From positions 372,001-436,000 of the forward strand of contig NZ_JQMP01000001.1 in NCBI RefSeq assembly GCF_000744775.1: DNA of 64,000 nucleotides. Reading direction: 5' to 3'. A program made the translations under genes and the position numbers. Of the stretch, positions 39,849-47,370 are shown in pieces. Under the pieces are notes generated by a model. The model was not told the DNA's origin, made no database searches, and saw nothing but the letters and a program-made list of their open reading frames with translations. How positions within the stretch are numbered: the first letter of the stretch is position 1; each line of letters starts with the position of its first letter. The stretch is from Thermorudis peleae (GTDB taxonomy: Bacteria > Chloroflexota > Chloroflexia > Thermomicrobiales > Thermomicrobiaceae).

Positions 39849-39994
39849 CACTGTTCTCCTTTCCGAGAGTTTGTGCTATCCCACGTACACTCCGCACTGG
39901 CGTCACATTGTTGGCTGTCGTGCTGTTTTCGGGCTGATCAGGTACAATCCGTTTGGATACAACATATACGCCATGGAACGATGCAAGGGGAGCC

Positions 39995-41173
39995 ATGGGG
40001 ATAGGGAACGGGCGTTTTCAACGTCTTGGGGAAAAACTTGTCGGGTTACTCGCACAGCGACTTGGCGCCCGCGTTGCACTGATGAACGAACGTGGCGAAC
40101 TGATAGCCCAGGCCATAGCGGCTGAAGCAGTTGGGCTGCCGGGCGAGCAATCCGCAGAGTCGATAGCTGTGCCCATCGCCTTTGAGGGATGGTGTGGGCA
40201 ATTGCTCGTCGAGCCGTGGGCTGGCGTCATGACAACACCTGGGCTATTGCTTCACCTCATTGTAGAGTTCGCGCTGAATTACTTGAGTTTAGTTGAGGAT
40301 GTTGGGGGACAACGCGAGCTGCGCCATAAGTTCATTCACGATCTTGTGCACGGCACCCTCGCCGACGAGCAGGAAGCTTTGCGTCTTGGGCAGATGTTAG
40401 GTATTGATTTTAGTCCTCCACGCGCTGTCATGCTCATTGATGCGTCAGCCTGGCTCTTTGCCTCACATGAACGACCAGGTGAAATTGACGAAACCCAACT
40501 CCGCCGTCGAGTTCAGAGGGTGATTAGTGAAATTGTTGCCTTCTTCCACCTGCCGACAGACGCCATTTGTGGCTATGTCGGAGACGGAGAAATTGTGATT
40601 CTCAAGGCGAGTGCCTCACGTGACCTGCGGCCCTGGGTGGACCAAGGAGGGCCACACATGCTCAGTGACAGCTGGGCGAATGTCCGCGCTCTCAAGCGAG
40701 CTGCGTGGGAGCTGCTCCATAAGCTGCACGGTGAGAGTGGGTTGCCAATCAGCATTGGGGTCGGCCGATATTATCCTGGCATCCAAGGACTTTCGCACTC
40801 ATATCACGATGCACGAGCCGCATTACGACTCGGCCTGCGGTTACATGGGCCAAATCGCGTCTACGCTCTTGATGACCTCGGGATGGCAGCATTCGTCGGC
40901 TCGGTCGATGAACATACGAAAATTGACCTTGCCCTTCATCTGCTCTCACCACTTGATCATGACCCAACCCTCATCGACACACTCAGAACGTTCTTTGCCG
41001 AGGACGGGCATATCTCACGCGTTGCCGAGCGGCTCCAAATTCATCGCAATACCTTGCGCTACCGGCTTGATCGCGTTACGGCACTGACCGGTCTTGATCC
41101 TCGCCGCTTCGATCAAGCCGTCCAACTGCGTCTGGCGCTCCTCATTCGCCAGCTTCACAGCACCGGGGCGTAG
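39995..41173 (+). CDS. PucR/CdaR-family transcriptional regulator
   Basis: 392 residues from the ATG at 39995 (AAGGGGAG upstream). C-terminal helix-turn-helix typical of the family, 'DGHISRVAERLQIHRNTLRYRLDRVTALTGLD' (in pieces). The middle (about 150-290) is the CdaR GGDEF-like domain. The N-terminal 100 residues look like a small ligand-binding domain. Divergent from the minus-strand GT9 gene and upstream of gmhA, so it may control the glycan cluster; that is inference from position. Confidence 0.85.
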   Translation: MGIGNGRFQRLGEKLVGLLAQRLGARVALMNERGELIAQAIAAEAVGLPGEQSAESIAVPIAFEGWCGQLLVEPWAGVMTTPGLLLHLIVEFALNYLSLVEDVGGQRELRHKFIHDLVHGTLADEQEALRLGQMLGIDFSPPRAVMLIDASAWLFASHERPGEIDETQLRRRVQRVISEIVAFFHLPTDAICGYVGDGEIVILKASASRDLRPWVDQGGPHMLSDSWANVRALKRAAWELLHKLHGESGLPISIGVGRYYPGIQGLSHSYHDARAALRLGLRLHGPNRVYALDDLGMAAFVGSVDEHTKIDLALHLLSPLDHDPTLIDTLRTFFAEDGHISRVAERLQIHRNTLRYRLDRVTALTGLDPRRFDQAVQLRLALLIRQLHSTGA

Positions 41174-41316: not shown

Positions 41317-41952
41317 ATGGGCAGCCAGCCGGAGCAGGTACCACAATCGTCGCATTCCACTGACTACCAGCAGTGGCTAGCTCATGCGCTTGCCGCTCGC
41401 CGTCATGCAATCAGCCAAGCGCTTCAGATACTTGAGACACAAAGCGACCACTTGGCCATCGTGGTTGCCTGGCTTGTGCAGAGCCTACAACGAGGCAACA
41501 AAGTTCTCGTTGCAGGCAATGGTGGCAGTGCTGCAGCCGCCCAACATCTTGCGGCTGAACTCGTTGGCCGGTTCCGTTGCGACCGTTCACCCCTCCCTGC
41601 CCTCGCGTTGACCGCTGACACCGCCCTCATGACCGCACTTGCAAACGACTTTGGCTATCATCAGGTCTTCATGCGGCAGATCCAAGCCCTAGCGCATGAA
41701 GGCGATGTGCTGGTTCTCTTCAGCACCAGCGGTCGTTCGGAGAGCGTGCTCGAGGCCGCCCGGGCAGCGCGGTCTCGAGGTGTCATCGTTATTGCCTTTG
41801 TTGGTGGACACCCCTCGCCGCTCCATCACATTGCCCACATAACACTCTCGATGCCATCAAACGATACACCGGTAGTGCAAGAACTCCATACTGTGGTGAC
41901 ACATCTCGTGTGTGAGCTTGTCGAACGCGAACTCTCGGAGCGGGCACAATGA
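41317..41952 (+). CDS. gmhA: Sedoheptulose-7-phosphate isomerase
   Basis: 211 residues, SIS domain. 'VLVAGNGGSAAAAQHLAAELVGRF' and 'FSTSGRSESVLEAARAARSRGVIVIAFVG' (in pieces) are GmhA motifs; 'QELHTVVTHLVCELVERE' closes the fold with the usual histidine. Converts sedoheptulose 7-phosphate to D-glycero-D-manno-heptose 7-phosphate, the first step of nucleotide-heptose synthesis. First gene of a tight plus-strand run to 51265. GGGGG precedes the ATG. Confidence 0.9.
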   Translation: MGSQPEQVPQSSHSTDYQQWLAHALAARRHAISQALQILETQSDHLAIVVAWLVQSLQRGNKVLVAGNGGSAAAAQHLAAELVGRFRCDRSPLPALALTADTALMTALANDFGYHQVFMRQIQALAHEGDVLVLFSTSGRSESVLEAARAARSRGVIVIAFVGGHPSPLHHIAHITLSMPSNDTPVVQELHTVVTHLVCELVERELSERAQ

Positions 41953-42599
41953 TGCGACGGGCAATTTTCCTCGACCGTGATGGCACGCTCGTCGAACGAC
42001 GACATTATCCCCGTCGTCCAGAGGAACTGTGCCTCTACCCAGGGATCGGCCCACTCTTACGCACAGCACAACAAGCAGGGTTTGCTCTTGTCGTCGTAAC
42101 GAACCAGTCGGGCATTGCGCACGGCTACTTCACAATGGCTGATTTAGCCGCGATGCATGCTGGTCTTGCCCACGCGCTTGCAGCGTGGGATGTTCGACTC
42201 GATGGCATCTATGTCTGTCCACACCACCCCGATGGCATCATTGCACCATTTGCCATTTCCTGCACCTGCCGCAAGCCAGCCCCTGGCCTCTTGCTTCAAG
42301 CAGCTGAAGACCTCAACCTCACTCTCAACCATTCGTGGATGATCGGCGACATCCTAGCTGATATTGAAGCCGGCAAGCGTGTTGGATGTCGAACGATCCT
42401 TGTTGATCTCGACACCGAACCACTGCCTATTTCCTGGATACAGTCTCCTGATTACGTTGCGCGCAGTACGGTTCATGCACTGCAGGTGGTCTTGGCTGTT
42501 GAAGGGCTGGGGCCATGCGTCGAGCTCGACTACTGGCCTGTTCGCTGGACACGTACTCCGTCTGCGAACAGTGAACGCCCAATGGACGACGGGATGTGA
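41949..42599 (+). CDS. gmhB: D,D-heptose 1,7-bisphosphate phosphatase-like HAD protein
   Basis: 216 residues. HAD motif I 'IFLDRDGTLV', motif II 'VVTNQSGIAHG', the GmhB zinc loop 'CPHHPDG...CTCRKPAPG', and motif IV 'MIGDILADIEAGKRVG'. Removes the C7 phosphate of heptose bisphosphate. Compared with E. coli GmhB it has about 30 extra C-terminal residues of no clear function. Overlaps gmhA by four bases. Confidence 0.9.
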   Translation: MMRRAIFLDRDGTLVERRHYPRRPEELCLYPGIGPLLRTAQQAGFALVVVTNQSGIAHGYFTMADLAAMHAGLAHALAAWDVRLDGIYVCPHHPDGIIAPFAISCTCRKPAPGLLLQAAEDLNLTLNHSWMIGDILADIEAGKRVGCRTILVDLDTEPLPISWIQSPDYVARSTVHALQVVLAVEGLGPCVELDYWPVRWTRTPSANSERPMDDGM

Positions 42600-42608
42600 G
42601 GATGCAAG

Positions 42609-44081
42609 ATGGAGGCTGATCTCGAAGTTATTTGGCACTTTACCCAGCAACGGGTCCTCGTGATCGGCGACGTTATGCTCGATAGCTATCTTGATGGAAC
42701 AGCCGAACGCCTCTGTCGTGAAGCCCCCGTGCCAGTCGTACGCACCCAAACAGTGCGGCATCTTCCAGGCGGGGCAGCTAACGCCGCGGTCAACGCACGC
42801 GCTCTTGGAGCACGCGTTATGCTTGTCGGACTCGTTGGCTCCGATGCGGCTAGTCTTCACCTCCGCGCTGCTCTCCGTGAGCGTGGCATCGATGACGGCT
42901 GGCTTGTCGAACATCGCGCATTGAGCACATTGCAAAAACTACGGGTACGCGCTGCTGGTCAGTTACTCGTTCGCATCGATGACGGGTGTACTGAACCGGA
43001 TCCAGAAAGCCAGCAGCAATTGATTGACCAGATCCTGAATGGGCTCACGAACTGTGACGCGGTTATTCTCTCGGACTATGGCTACGGCGTGCTAAGCGAT
43101 CCGGTACTGCAGCGCATCAGTGAAGTGCTGCGTTTCCGTCCATGCCCCATTGTGATTGATACGAAGCTGCCGCACCGCTTCGCCCATGTTCCGGCAACCG
43201 TGGTTACGCCAAGCCACCTCGACCTGCAACGTACGGCATCCGATGATCTCGGGCATGATCTAACAGCGATTGAGCAGCGCGGCCGATTGTTGCTCAAGCA
43301 ACTTCGCGCATCCTACCTAGCCATTACTCTTGCCCACAACGGGGTTTTGCTTCTGAATCAGGACGGCCAGGCCCAACACTACCGCGCTCGTGCAGTAACG
43401 GCGACGAGCAGCATTGGCGCTGGTGATGTCTTTACGGCAACGCTCGCACTGGGGCTGGCCGCTGGCGCTTCATGCGAACAAGCGGTGCGGCTCGGCATGC
43501 TCGCTGCCGAGTTGGCCATCCGTCGTGCTGATACCGTGACAATCGACCGTCCAACATTGCTTCGGGCCTTTTGCCAACCCGAACATCGCCCGCAACTGCC
43601 TGGCCCACTGTCAGTGCGGGCTGCTCAAGCGTGGGTTGAAACCGCGCGGGAGTCGGGACGTCGTATTACGCTCCTCGCTGGAAGTTTTGCGCAGATCGGC
43701 TGGGACGACGTCCGTGCTTTACGGCAATACGTAGAGCCAGACAGTGCACTGCTTGCTGCTGTATGGAGTGACGAGGCGCTTGCTCAGCGTACTGGCACGC
43801 CAGTATCTCATGCCTCCGAACTCGATCGAGCGACGCTTGCTGCAGCGCTGCTACCTGTAGACACCGTCGTGGTTTGTCCCGAGCCCTCAGCTGCTACTTT
43901 GCTTCGCACGCTCCGCCCCCACCGCTTCATCGTGCCAGCATCATGGCCGAGTTCACTGCACGACTGGGATGAACAACGAGTTGTTAATGAACTTGGCATT
44001 CTGGTTGTGCGATTACCACAACCCCGCGTACCTCAGCACGCTCCCAAATCTTCGACGATCGTTGAAGGCAACGGCGTATGA
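42609..44081 (+). CDS. HldE-like heptose kinase with degenerate adenylyltransferase domain
   Basis: 490 residues. Residues 1-325 are a PfkB-type heptokinase: 'GDVMLDSYLDGTAERLCREAPVPVV' (in pieces), 'PGGAANAAVNARALGARVMLVGLVGSD' and the catalytic 'SSIGAGDVFTATLALGLAAG'. Residues 335-490 align in order with the HldE nucleotidyltransferase domain ('LSVRAAQAWVETARESGRRITLLAGSF', '...VWSDEALAQ', 'DRATLAAALLPVDTVVV', 'LLRTLRPHRFIV', 'SSTIVE'), but where active enzymes have GxFDxxHxGH this one reads GSFAQIGWDD (359-367), so both histidines are gone. Kinase likely active; adenylyl transfer very unlikely. Confidence 0.85.
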   Translation: MEADLEVIWHFTQQRVLVIGDVMLDSYLDGTAERLCREAPVPVVRTQTVRHLPGGAANAAVNARALGARVMLVGLVGSDAASLHLRAALRERGIDDGWLVEHRALSTLQKLRVRAAGQLLVRIDDGCTEPDPESQQQLIDQILNGLTNCDAVILSDYGYGVLSDPVLQRISEVLRFRPCPIVIDTKLPHRFAHVPATVVTPSHLDLQRTASDDLGHDLTAIEQRGRLLLKQLRASYLAITLAHNGVLLLNQDGQAQHYRARAVTATSSIGAGDVFTATLALGLAAGASCEQAVRLGMLAAELAIRRADTVTIDRPTLLRAFCQPEHRPQLPGPLSVRAAQAWVETARESGRRITLLAGSFAQIGWDDVRALRQYVEPDSALLAAVWSDEALAQRTGTPVSHASELDRATLAAALLPVDTVVVCPEPSAATLLRTLRPHRFIVPASWPSSLHDWDEQRVVNELGILVVRLPQPRVPQHAPKSSTIVEGNGV

Positions 44082-45187
44082 CGTGGCATACGACATGGAC
44101 ATCAGTTAAGCGGCTGTTATTTGTTCGGCTCGACAATCTTGGTGACGTCTTGCTGATGACTCCGGCCTTTCGTGCTGTTCGTCGGGCACTGCCCGACGCC
44201 TATCTTGCCCTGTTGGCAAGTCCGGTTGGAGCACAGGTCGGACGACTTAACCCTGATCTCGACGAAGTGATTGTCTATCAGGCCCCCTGGGTAGATCCAT
44301 GGCAACAACTCCCACACGATCCCGAGCGGGAACGCGCGATGATCGAGGAACTGCGAACGCGCCGGTTTGACGCCGCAATAATTTTTACCTCTGAGCGACA
44401 GAGTCCGTTGCCAGCAGCGTATCTCTGCTATCTGGCTGGCATACCACTACGTCTCGGTGCGACGAGTGACGGTGCTGGTTCCCTGCTTACGACACGTCAC
44501 CGTCCACCAACGCAGCGCATCCATGAAGTCGAACGCGCGCTCGATCTTGTTGGCAGTGTCGGCTTCGCGACAGCTGAGCGTTCGCTAGTTCTGCAGGTCC
44601 CGCCTGCAGCTCATCGGACTGTTGCTGCGCGCTTGGCGCAGGTTGGCGCAGCATCGTCTCCTCTCGTGATCGTCCATCCTGGCTGCAGCATGCCTGCACG
44701 TACGTATCCAGCGTCGCATTACGTTGATGTTATCGAATTGCTCCTGCAGCGTTATCCTGGGTGGATCGTGATTACCGGATCTGATGCTGAACAATCGCTG
44801 GTTGAGAGCGTCTACGCCCAGCTCTCGCCGGGCTCGAAGGCACGGGCCTTGCCCTGGGCGGGGCTACTCACCTTCCCAGAATTGTGTGCATTGATCGCTC
44901 GCGCGCAGCTTGTAATCACAAACAACACCGGCCCAGCGCACATTGCTGCTGCGGTTGGCACGCCGGTCATTGTGATCTTTGCCCTAACGAATCCGCCAGA
45001 ACAGTGGCATCCCTGGGGTATCCCGTATCAATTGCTCTTTCAGGATGTGCCATGTCGCCTCTGCTATGCCCGTATCTGTCCTGTTGATCATGCTTGTATC
45101 CGTCGTGTTACGCCAGAGCAAGTGGTTGAATCAGCACTCCACATGCTTGCTATGAGCAGAGTGGAAGGCACAGGAAATGGGGCATAG
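44078..45187 (+). CDS. GT9 glycosyltransferase, tandem copy 1
   Basis: 369 residues. 'KRLLFVRLDNLGDVLLMTPAFRAVRRALPDA' (in pieces) opens the GT9/GT-B fold; 'VIVHPGCSMPARTYPASHYVDVIELLL' and 'LVITNNTGPAHIAAAVGTPVIVIF' form the donor site. C-terminal cysteines C-x2-C-x4-C-x5-C (CRLCYARICPVDHAC). Closely related in layout to the next gene, including the shared 'DAAIIFTS' and 'YLAGIPLR' segments, so the pair arose by duplication. Overlaps the hldE-like stop by four bases. Confidence 0.88.
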   Translation: MTWHTTWTSVKRLLFVRLDNLGDVLLMTPAFRAVRRALPDAYLALLASPVGAQVGRLNPDLDEVIVYQAPWVDPWQQLPHDPERERAMIEELRTRRFDAAIIFTSERQSPLPAAYLCYLAGIPLRLGATSDGAGSLLTTRHRPPTQRIHEVERALDLVGSVGFATAERSLVLQVPPAAHRTVAARLAQVGAASSPLVIVHPGCSMPARTYPASHYVDVIELLLQRYPGWIVITGSDAEQSLVESVYAQLSPGSKARALPWAGLLTFPELCALIARAQLVITNNTGPAHIAAAVGTPVIVIFALTNPPEQWHPWGIPYQLLFQDVPCRLCYARICPVDHACIRRVTPEQVVESALHMLAMSRVEGTGNGA

Positions 45188-46316
45188 TAGGCCATCGTCG
45201 CCATGGCAGACCATTTCCAGGCTGCTTGTTGTCCGGCTCGATAACATGGGTGATGTCGTGCTACTGTCGCCGGCGCTGCGGGCGCTGAAAGCCGCTCTGC
45301 CCCACGTGTCGATTACGCTCCTTGCTAGTCCAGCAGGACAACACGCAGCGGCGCTTCTGCCATGGATTAATGATGTGATCGTTTGGCGTGCTGTGTGGCA
45401 GGATGTTGGCGGCTCTCTCCCATTTGATCCTTGGCGCGAACGTGTACTCATCGCCAATCTCGCCCAGCAACAGTTTGACGCTGCAATCATCTTCACATCC
45501 TTTAGCCAAACAGCGCATGTGCCCGGGTATGTTTGCTATCTCGCGGGCATTCCCTTGCGCGCTGGTATGGTCAAGGAATTTGGCGGAAGCGTACTCACGA
45601 CGGAGATCCGGCACGAGCCAGATTGTCAGCATCAAGCGGAACGCAACATCCGTCTGGTTGAACATCTCGGGTTTCCAGTGGTTGATCGACGCCTGGAGGT
45701 ACGCATTACCCCCACAGGCATGACTGAGGCTCACAACCTCCTTGCACATTTCGGCCTCACCCGTAGGACGCCATACGTCTTGATACACCCTGGAGCGAGT
45801 TGCCAAGCGCGGCGCTATCCTCCCCATCGCTTTGCCATTGTGATCGAGGAACTGATTCGCCTTGGTCTACCAGTTGTAATCACTGGAACTGAGCGTGAGC
45901 GCAGTTTTATTGAGCCACTGCTCGCAAACCAGCGCAGCGGCGTCTACCCGATCATTGGGCAGACCAGCTTACCAGCCTTTGCAGCATTGATCGACTCAGC
46001 TGCCGTCGTTGTTTGCGGTAATACATTGCCGCTGCACTTGGCTGATGCGCTCGGCACACCCGTTGTTGCCCTCTACTCCGGCACCGATCTCGAGGTGCAA
46101 TGGGCTCCTCGGTTTACGCCACATCGCATCTTACGCCGGCCGACCCCCTGCACCCCGTGTTACCGCTTCACGTGTGCCTTTGGTGACGAGCAACCCTGTC
46201 TCGACATCGACCCAGCAACAGTCGTTGAAGCAATCTCTTCGTTGCTTGATATGCCGCCAACAACGGCTGAGCCATGGTCGCCCGAGAGGGGGGATCATGC
46301 ACGCGCTTCTCAATAA
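45177..46316 (+). CDS. GT9 glycosyltransferase, tandem copy 2
   Basis: 379 residues. 'SRLLVVRLDNMGDVVLLSPALRALKAALPH' (in pieces), 'VLIHPGASCQARRYPPHRFAIVIEELI' and 'AVVVCGNTLPLHLADALGTPVVALYSGTD'. In this copy the donor-site motif usually read as N-x-T-G-P-x-H is GNTLPLHL, a change at the Gly-Pro pair. C-terminal cysteines are CTPCYRFTCAFGDEQPC. Overlaps copy 1 by 11 bases. Confidence 0.87.
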   Translation: MGHSRPSSPWQTISRLLVVRLDNMGDVVLLSPALRALKAALPHVSITLLASPAGQHAAALLPWINDVIVWRAVWQDVGGSLPFDPWRERVLIANLAQQQFDAAIIFTSFSQTAHVPGYVCYLAGIPLRAGMVKEFGGSVLTTEIRHEPDCQHQAERNIRLVEHLGFPVVDRRLEVRITPTGMTEAHNLLAHFGLTRRTPYVLIHPGASCQARRYPPHRFAIVIEELIRLGLPVVITGTERERSFIEPLLANQRSGVYPIIGQTSLPAFAALIDSAAVVVCGNTLPLHLADALGTPVVALYSGTDLEVQWAPRFTPHRILRRPTPCTPCYRFTCAFGDEQPCLDIDPATVVEAISSLLDMPPTTAEPWSPERGDHARASQ

Positions 46317-47370
46317 TCGGTCGACGGTTCGGCGCATTGCGGTTCTCCGTGCATTGCACCTCGGCGATCTTTTGCTGGCAGTACCAGCCTTTCGCTCCTT
46401 GCGGGCCGGTTTTCCGCAGGCTGAGATTACATTGATCAGCTTGCCCTGGGCCGAAAGCTTTGTACGGCGTTTCCATCGCTATCTCGACCGCTTCGTCTGC
46501 TTCGAAGGATTCCCAGGAATTAGCGAAGTTGCAGTAGTTCCAGAGCGGGTTGCCGCATTCCTCGCCGCACAGCAAGGATATGGCTACGACCTCGTGATCC
46601 AGCTGCACGGCAACGGGCAGGCAAGTAATCCCTGTGCGCTTGCGCTTGGCGGGACAATCACCGCTGGCTATTTTGTTGGCGAACCGCCCCAGGGCTTGAC
46701 GATTGCCTTACCCTATCCTGCTTATCTTCATGAAATCCATCGCAATCTTGGCCTTATGCGTGCGCTTGGTTGCCCCGACTGCGGCGACAACCTGGAGTTC
46801 CCACTCAGTGACGAAGACAGGGCTGAAGCTCAAGCATTGCTTGCGCCACTTGCCAGCCGGCCACGCCCGTGGATTGGTCTCCACCCAGGCGCACGGCCAC
46901 CGGCACGCCGTTGGCCTATTGAGCGCTTCGCTACGGTTGCCAATGGCTTACGAGAGCGGTTTCAAGCACAGCTCGTTATTACTGGCTCATTGGATGAGAT
47001 GGCGTTGGCACAAGAACTCGCTAGCCAGATCAGGGGAGAGCCACTCGTCCTGGCTGGGCAAACCAGCCTTGGCGGGCTGGCAGCGGTGCTCGCCAGTCTT
47101 GACCTCTTCATCAGCAACGATACTGGCCCCGCTCATATCGCTGTTGCTGTGAAGACCCCAAGCATAACGCTCTTTGGTCCAGCCGATGTTCGACGCTGGG
47201 CACCGCTCGATCGTCAGCGGCATCCGATCCTGCATCATCCTTTACCGTGCAGCCCATGTGCGTACTGGGAATGTCCAATCGACCATCGATGCCTGCGTGC
47301 GATTTCCGCTGAGGCCGTGCTTGCCAAGGCTGAGCAGCTGTTGACAGGAGTGCAGTCATGCGCCAGTTAA
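46297..47370 (+). CDS. GT9 glycosyltransferase, third in tandem
   Basis: 357 residues from the ATG at 46297 (GAGGGGGGATC upstream); the frame extends back to 46009 inside the previous gene without homology. 'RRIAVLRALHLGDLLLAVPAFRSLRAGFPQAEITLI' (in pieces), 'IGLHPGARPPARRWPIERFATVANGL' and 'LFISNDTGPAHIAVAVKTPSITLFGP'. C-terminal cysteines CSPCAYWECPIDHRC. Its best match within the window is the minus-strand GT9 at 38760, not its tandem neighbours. Confidence 0.88.
   Translation: MHALLNNRSTVRRIAVLRALHLGDLLLAVPAFRSLRAGFPQAEITLISLPWAESFVRRFHRYLDRFVCFEGFPGISEVAVVPERVAAFLAAQQGYGYDLVIQLHGNGQASNPCALALGGTITAGYFVGEPPQGLTIALPYPAYLHEIHRNLGLMRALGCPDCGDNLEFPLSDEDRAEAQALLAPLASRPRPWIGLHPGARPPARRWPIERFATVANGLRERFQAQLVITGSLDEMALAQELASQIRGEPLVLAGQTSLGGLAAVLASLDLFISNDTGPAHIAVAVKTPSITLFGPADVRRWAPLDRQRHPILHHPLPCSPCAYWECPIDHRCLRAISAEAVLAKAEQLLTGVQSCAS

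Follow-up and report, generated by a model that had tools for sequence, protein, structure and literature searches.

A fused HldE-type protein of Thermorudis peleae with a conserved kinase half and a degenerate, very probably inactive adenylyltransferase half

The window analysed, a stretch of 64,000 nucleotides from the genome of Thermorudis peleae (G000, 97% complete), carries a heptose cluster in the order PucR-gmhA-gmhB-HldE-GT9-GT9-GT9-GT4-GT4-GT2. The gmhA (41317..41952; TIGR00441, 168 bits) and gmhB (41949..42599; TIGR00213, 138 bits) genes, each the sole copy found in the genome, lie directly upstream of the HldE gene as a preliminary description of this DNA had stated, with three GT9 (heptosyltransferase-family, PF01075) genes at 44078-45187, 45177-46316 and 46288-47370. 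All are on the plus strand, as are the HldE gene itself and every feature within it described below. The HldE gene (42609..44081) encodes a fused protein of 490 amino acids (P0001) made up of an HldA-type kinase half and a degenerate HldC-type half, for which AlphaFold returned a pLDDT of 89.7. The order PucR-gmhA-gmhB-HldE-GT9-GT9-GT9 recurs in three relatives (G001, G007 and G014), with the order of the cluster as a whole matched in G007 and G014 and closely approached in G001, indicating that P0001 is the positional orthologue of the fused HldEs of these three genomes, in which HxGH is intact. The putative PucR-like regulator gene (39953-41173) adjoins the heptose cluster in the window and likewise in G001, G007, G014, G111 and G112, and this shared adjacency suggests that it controls the cluster. 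In G001, a second gmhA-like SIS gene is found just 3′ of the cluster (L171 16694-17326).

The kinase half of P0001 (42609..43565) matches TIGR02198 over residues 10-319 with 238 bits, its relatives also falling under the cut-off of 345. Of 56 conserved positions 53 are retained, among them GAGD at residues 270-273 (IGAGD, 269-273), and the top PDB match of this half by both sequence and fold is HldA 4e84, with a TM score of 0.89 by target length. The three positions lost (N202S, E205D and A206L), which 96-98% of 47 fused relatives share, comprise the NxxE motif and its neighbour, such that the motif reads SxxD (TPSHLD in place of TPNxxE; residues 200-205, 43206..43223). The NxxE motif has a part in Mg2+ binding (PMC5931981) and an E-to-K change within it abolishes the activity of adenosine kinase (PMC3118340). 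N-to-S together with E-to-D would be milder than E-to-K, with the kinase activity of P0001 not assured. As such, the earlier statement that the kinase half is intact was too strong; this half is well conserved apart from a change in its Mg2+/phosphate motif.

The second half of P0001 (residues 336-490; 43614..44078) still aligns in order with the HldE nucleotidyltransferase domain, as had been proposed, with TIGR02199 in register over residues 343-466 (32.5 bits). Scanned alone it scores 34.9 bits (E 1.2e-8) against a cut-off of 181.5, while three related fused HldEs score 137-186 bits in the same scan, and no match to Pfam CTP_transf_like is left in P0001. Forty transferase positions are at least 90% conserved in the 47 aligned fused relatives; P0001 keeps 17 of these, having lost among others N357, D361, H367, N386, P428, K442 and G443, with each of the relatives keeping at least 35. 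The open reading frame, its position and the sequence GSFAQIGWDD at the former GxFDxxHxGH motif are as first reported, the motif spanning residues 358-367 and bases 43680..43709 rather than 359-367 and 43680-43715. Five substrate motifs (TNG, NSD, KG, ExTP and KGG) have been proposed for HldC of Burkholderia pseudomallei (PMC7993394), and these read LAG, WSD (residues 386-388, 43764..43772), TG, EPSA and VPA in P0001, the former KGGDY reading VPASW (residues 442-446, 43932..43946). The STT motif and C-terminal helix are absent from this half, the corresponding segment (residues 471-490, 44019..44078) being a low-confidence tail that contains the only lysine, K480, and the nearest histidine past the former HxGH is residue 401. 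In the related enzyme PfCCT, the changes K663A, T761A or T762A each lower kcat around 1000-fold or more (PMC6060094). Given the fall in activity of the PfCCT mutants and the loss from P0001 of HxGH, both lysine motifs (KG and KGGDY), the other substrate motifs and STT, with no lysine before K480, catalysis would be very improbable and the transferase half is very probably dead, bearing out the loss of the adenylyltransferase active site originally claimed. A frameshift or assembly artefact was rejected as the reading frame is intact and the other frames of the region contain neither HxGH/TxGH nor a domain-model match.

With an alignment of relatives, AlphaFold predicts that the fold of the transferase half is kept, residues 332-490 alone giving a pLDDT of 87.7 and HldC 5xf2 being among the nearest solved structures (TM 0.71), in a model that leans to the intact fold since the alignment rows are mostly intact relatives. 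Most of the last 20 residues were modelled at low confidence, with the rest of the half mostly above a pLDDT of 80. The resemblance of the predicted fold to HldC and to the Fom1 cytidylyltransferase would fit a half that retains adenylyltransferase activity through a rearranged active site, a reading that is extremely improbable with all of the motif residues gone, no histidine after the motif nearer than 401 and no lysine before K480.

The lineage-specific rates of change were compared by counting changes unique to G000 or to G007 with G001 as the outgroup and eight cluster genes as the reference. The G000:G007 counts were 54:9 for the transferase half, a ratio of 6:1, and 63:25 (2.5) for the kinase half, with 369:198 for the eight cluster genes summed (1.9:1 overall, single genes ranging from 0.8 to 2.6). 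Comparison of the transferase half with the cluster gave p=0.0006, and with the kinase half a marginal p=0.049, while kinase half and cluster were not different (p=0.28); the relaxation is therefore specific to the transferase half of P0001. P0001 and its nearest relatives share about 49% identity over the kinase half and about 31% over the transferase half, whereas for most of the intact pairs compared conservation is either similar in both halves or higher in the transferase half. The normal rate of the kinase half, together with its 53 of 56 conserved positions, points to a probable heptose 7-phosphate kinase activity.

It had been suggested that the dead domain might have become an allosteric or scaffolding unit, and a domain kept under selection for dimerisation, scaffolding or allosteric control of the kinase would be in keeping with a frame that is open to its end and with the modelled HldC fold. 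The substitutions in P0001 however look neutral, with a mean BLOSUM62 score at changed sites of -0.6 to -0.9 compared to -0.7 to -0.9 in a neutral simulation, and the fold is predicted from an alignment dominated by intact relatives. In simulation, the chance of the frame staying open under neutrality was 0.04-0.32; neutrality is not rejected at these values and frame persistence was discarded as proof of selection on this half. Even with the evidence from other fused HldEs (see below), such a retained role is unlikely.

The cluster had been described as lacking an enzyme to activate heptose 1-phosphate, which need not be the endpoint of the pathway as an intact stand-alone HldC is encoded on another contig of the same genome (G000:C3:436896-437339, 167 bits), adjacent to a putative MurJ gene. 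This protein carries GHFDLLHPGH, YVKGGDY and WSTT, and its discovery by genome search corresponds to one of the three outcomes foreseen, namely another HldC elsewhere. The remaining cytidylyltransferase-like proteins encoded in the genome appear to be CoaD, NadD and RibF, leaving HldC as the only candidate of the superfamily for this activation. A second HldA-like kinase, with NxxE kept, is encoded on the same contig (G000:C3:802625-803515, 275 bits). Both proteins score under the NCBI equivalog cut-offs (167 vs 181.5 for HldC and 275 vs 345 for HldA), as do many members from Chloroflexota.

The presence of both stand-alone enzymes raises the question of whether they have taken over both steps, such that the whole P0001 gene is redundant and decaying. 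The intact NxxE of the second kinase and the departures of P0001 at N202, E205 and A206 would be consistent with this, as would its long terminal branch in the kinase tree (1.35 vs a median of 0.56). In the same tree P0001 groups with L010/L012 (98% SH-aLRT), both of which keep HAGH, in support of its orthology to intact fused HldEs. Decay of the whole gene is nonetheless distinctly unlikely, since the kinase half has a lineage ratio like that of the neighbouring genes and so few lost positions, and the stand-alone HldA, at 32% identity, is no close copy.

No HldD-grade epimerase was found in the genome (best match 104 bits against a cut-off of 274.6), and no match to gmhB was detected in nine near-complete same-family genomes that carry a stand-alone HldC. 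Both observations would fit a cluster that no longer makes ADP-heptose, with the glycosyltransferases using another donor, but ADP-D-glycero-heptose needs no HldD, gmhA, gmhB and the GT9 trio persist in a conserved order, and the cluster of the relatives has an intact HldE, making the use of another donor very unlikely. The absence of gmhB matches from the nine genomes does indicate that HldC may serve another substrate or pair with another phosphatase. Of the nine (G002, G003, G005, G008, G009, G011, G013, G016 and G018), most also have a separate HldA-like kinase, which together with HldC may have a different sugar phosphate as its substrate or depend on a different phosphatase.

The favoured interpretation, considered probable, is that P0001 works as a kinase of the HldA type whose transferase domain is vestigial, the pathway being completed in trans by HldC. 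P0001 would descend from a bifunctional HldE, with GmhB, encoded beside it, removing the 7-phosphate, the stand-alone HldC performing adenylyl transfer in trans and the neighbouring GT9 enzymes using the ADP-heptose made. In this scheme the domain would have lost its catalytic residues because HldC makes it redundant, with the kinase half remaining under normal constraint. Within it the kinase activity of P0001, the action of HldC on this heptose and the donor of the glycosyltransferases are inferred. Against redundancy as the sole cause, a fused HldE that is intact coexists with a stand-alone HldC in many genomes, and redundancy alone thus does not force the loss. The notion that the presence of HldC strictly predicts loss was likewise rejected, as most genomes with both keep HxGH and one fused HldE with an altered motif (L018, reading QAGH) comes from a 72% complete genome in which no stand-alone HldC was found.

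The recurrence of motif loss was surveyed in 54 fused HldEs, obtained mostly from searches of Chloroflexota. Three of these (P0001, L075 and L077) lack the second His of HxGH, and a further four (L072, L073, L074 and L018) differ at the first His only. Changes to the first His alone (NSGH, SSSH and QAGH) were not scored as proof of death, as CoaD reads TNGH. Five of the altered proteins come from one family of bacteria, f8 (L072-L075 and L077, from genomes G111-G114 and G116), which reads SSSH, NSGH, TSGN or SSAQ at HxGH and has lost STT while keeping KGGDY, and all five genomes carry an intact HldA-HldC tandem. In the kinase tree f8 lies far from P0001, with parsimony requiring three changes whether only the second His or any alteration of the motif is counted. 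Partial erosion is seen in the nearest relatives of P0001 (G007 and G014), in which KGGDY has become KGAEH or KGADH and STT is lost. HxGH was retained in all of the roughly 50 stand-alone HldCs and in all 69 fused HldEs from a scan of GTDB alignments, the latter being a sample that is mostly distant and is biased as one scan pattern favours HxGH. The open-access literature, to which the search was confined, yielded no account of an HldE with kinase function only and a dead transferase half, and the preliminary description knew of none either. The loss is not unique to this genome, as f8, from the same class, shows similar loss.

The f8 transferase domains have retained 37-40 of some 40 conserved positions and give dN/dS values of around 0.1-0.25 in most pairs and 0.42 in one, obtained with dS saturated in most pairs, and this suggests that these domains are under constraint. 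A retained role for the dead domain is accordingly more plausible in f8 than in P0001, and f8 proteins are better candidates for a conserved pseudo-transferase domain. A broader proposal, that the fused HldE of Chloroflexota has turned more than once into a kinase with a regulatory or assembly pseudo-adenylyltransferase, catalysis being handed to a separate HldC, is advanced tentatively and is unlikely. P0001 is a genuine yet fairly ordinary example of an enzyme half that erodes when it is redundant.

When set against known systems, P0001 shares with HldE (TIGR02198 and TIGR02199) its domain order, full-length homology, the gmhA-gmhB-GT9 setting and the kinase GAGD, differing in a second half without HxGH, KG, KGGDY and STT and in a kinase NxxE that is SxxD. 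With HldA of Burkholderia cenocepacia (4e84) it has in common the kinase fold, most conserved residues and a predicted single activity, although P0001 carries a degenerate transferase domain and an altered NxxE. The likeness to HldC of B. pseudomallei (5xf2) is confined to the predicted fold of the second half, all of the proposed substrate and catalytic motifs having been lost. The f8 proteins resemble P0001 in their fused kinase and transferase, altered HxGH and an intact HldA-HldC pair in the genome, but keep KGGDY and almost all conserved positions, with the second His lost in two of the five.

Automatic annotation would likely name P0001 a bifunctional HldE and so assign to it a reaction that is very probably beyond it. 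The recurrent loss suggests a route by which a fused pathway enzyme can fall back to one activity when a separate enzyme is available, and the f8 proteins, in which the domain is conserved after the His changes, make a second role of the HldE transferase domain directly testable. The fused HldE L018 (G056), from a genome that is 72% complete, reads GVIDILQAGH and keeps its other motifs. Weak TIGR02199 matches at G022:C12:677187-677483 (82 bits) and G151:C191:7360-7731 (69 bits) may represent diverged HldC-type domains.
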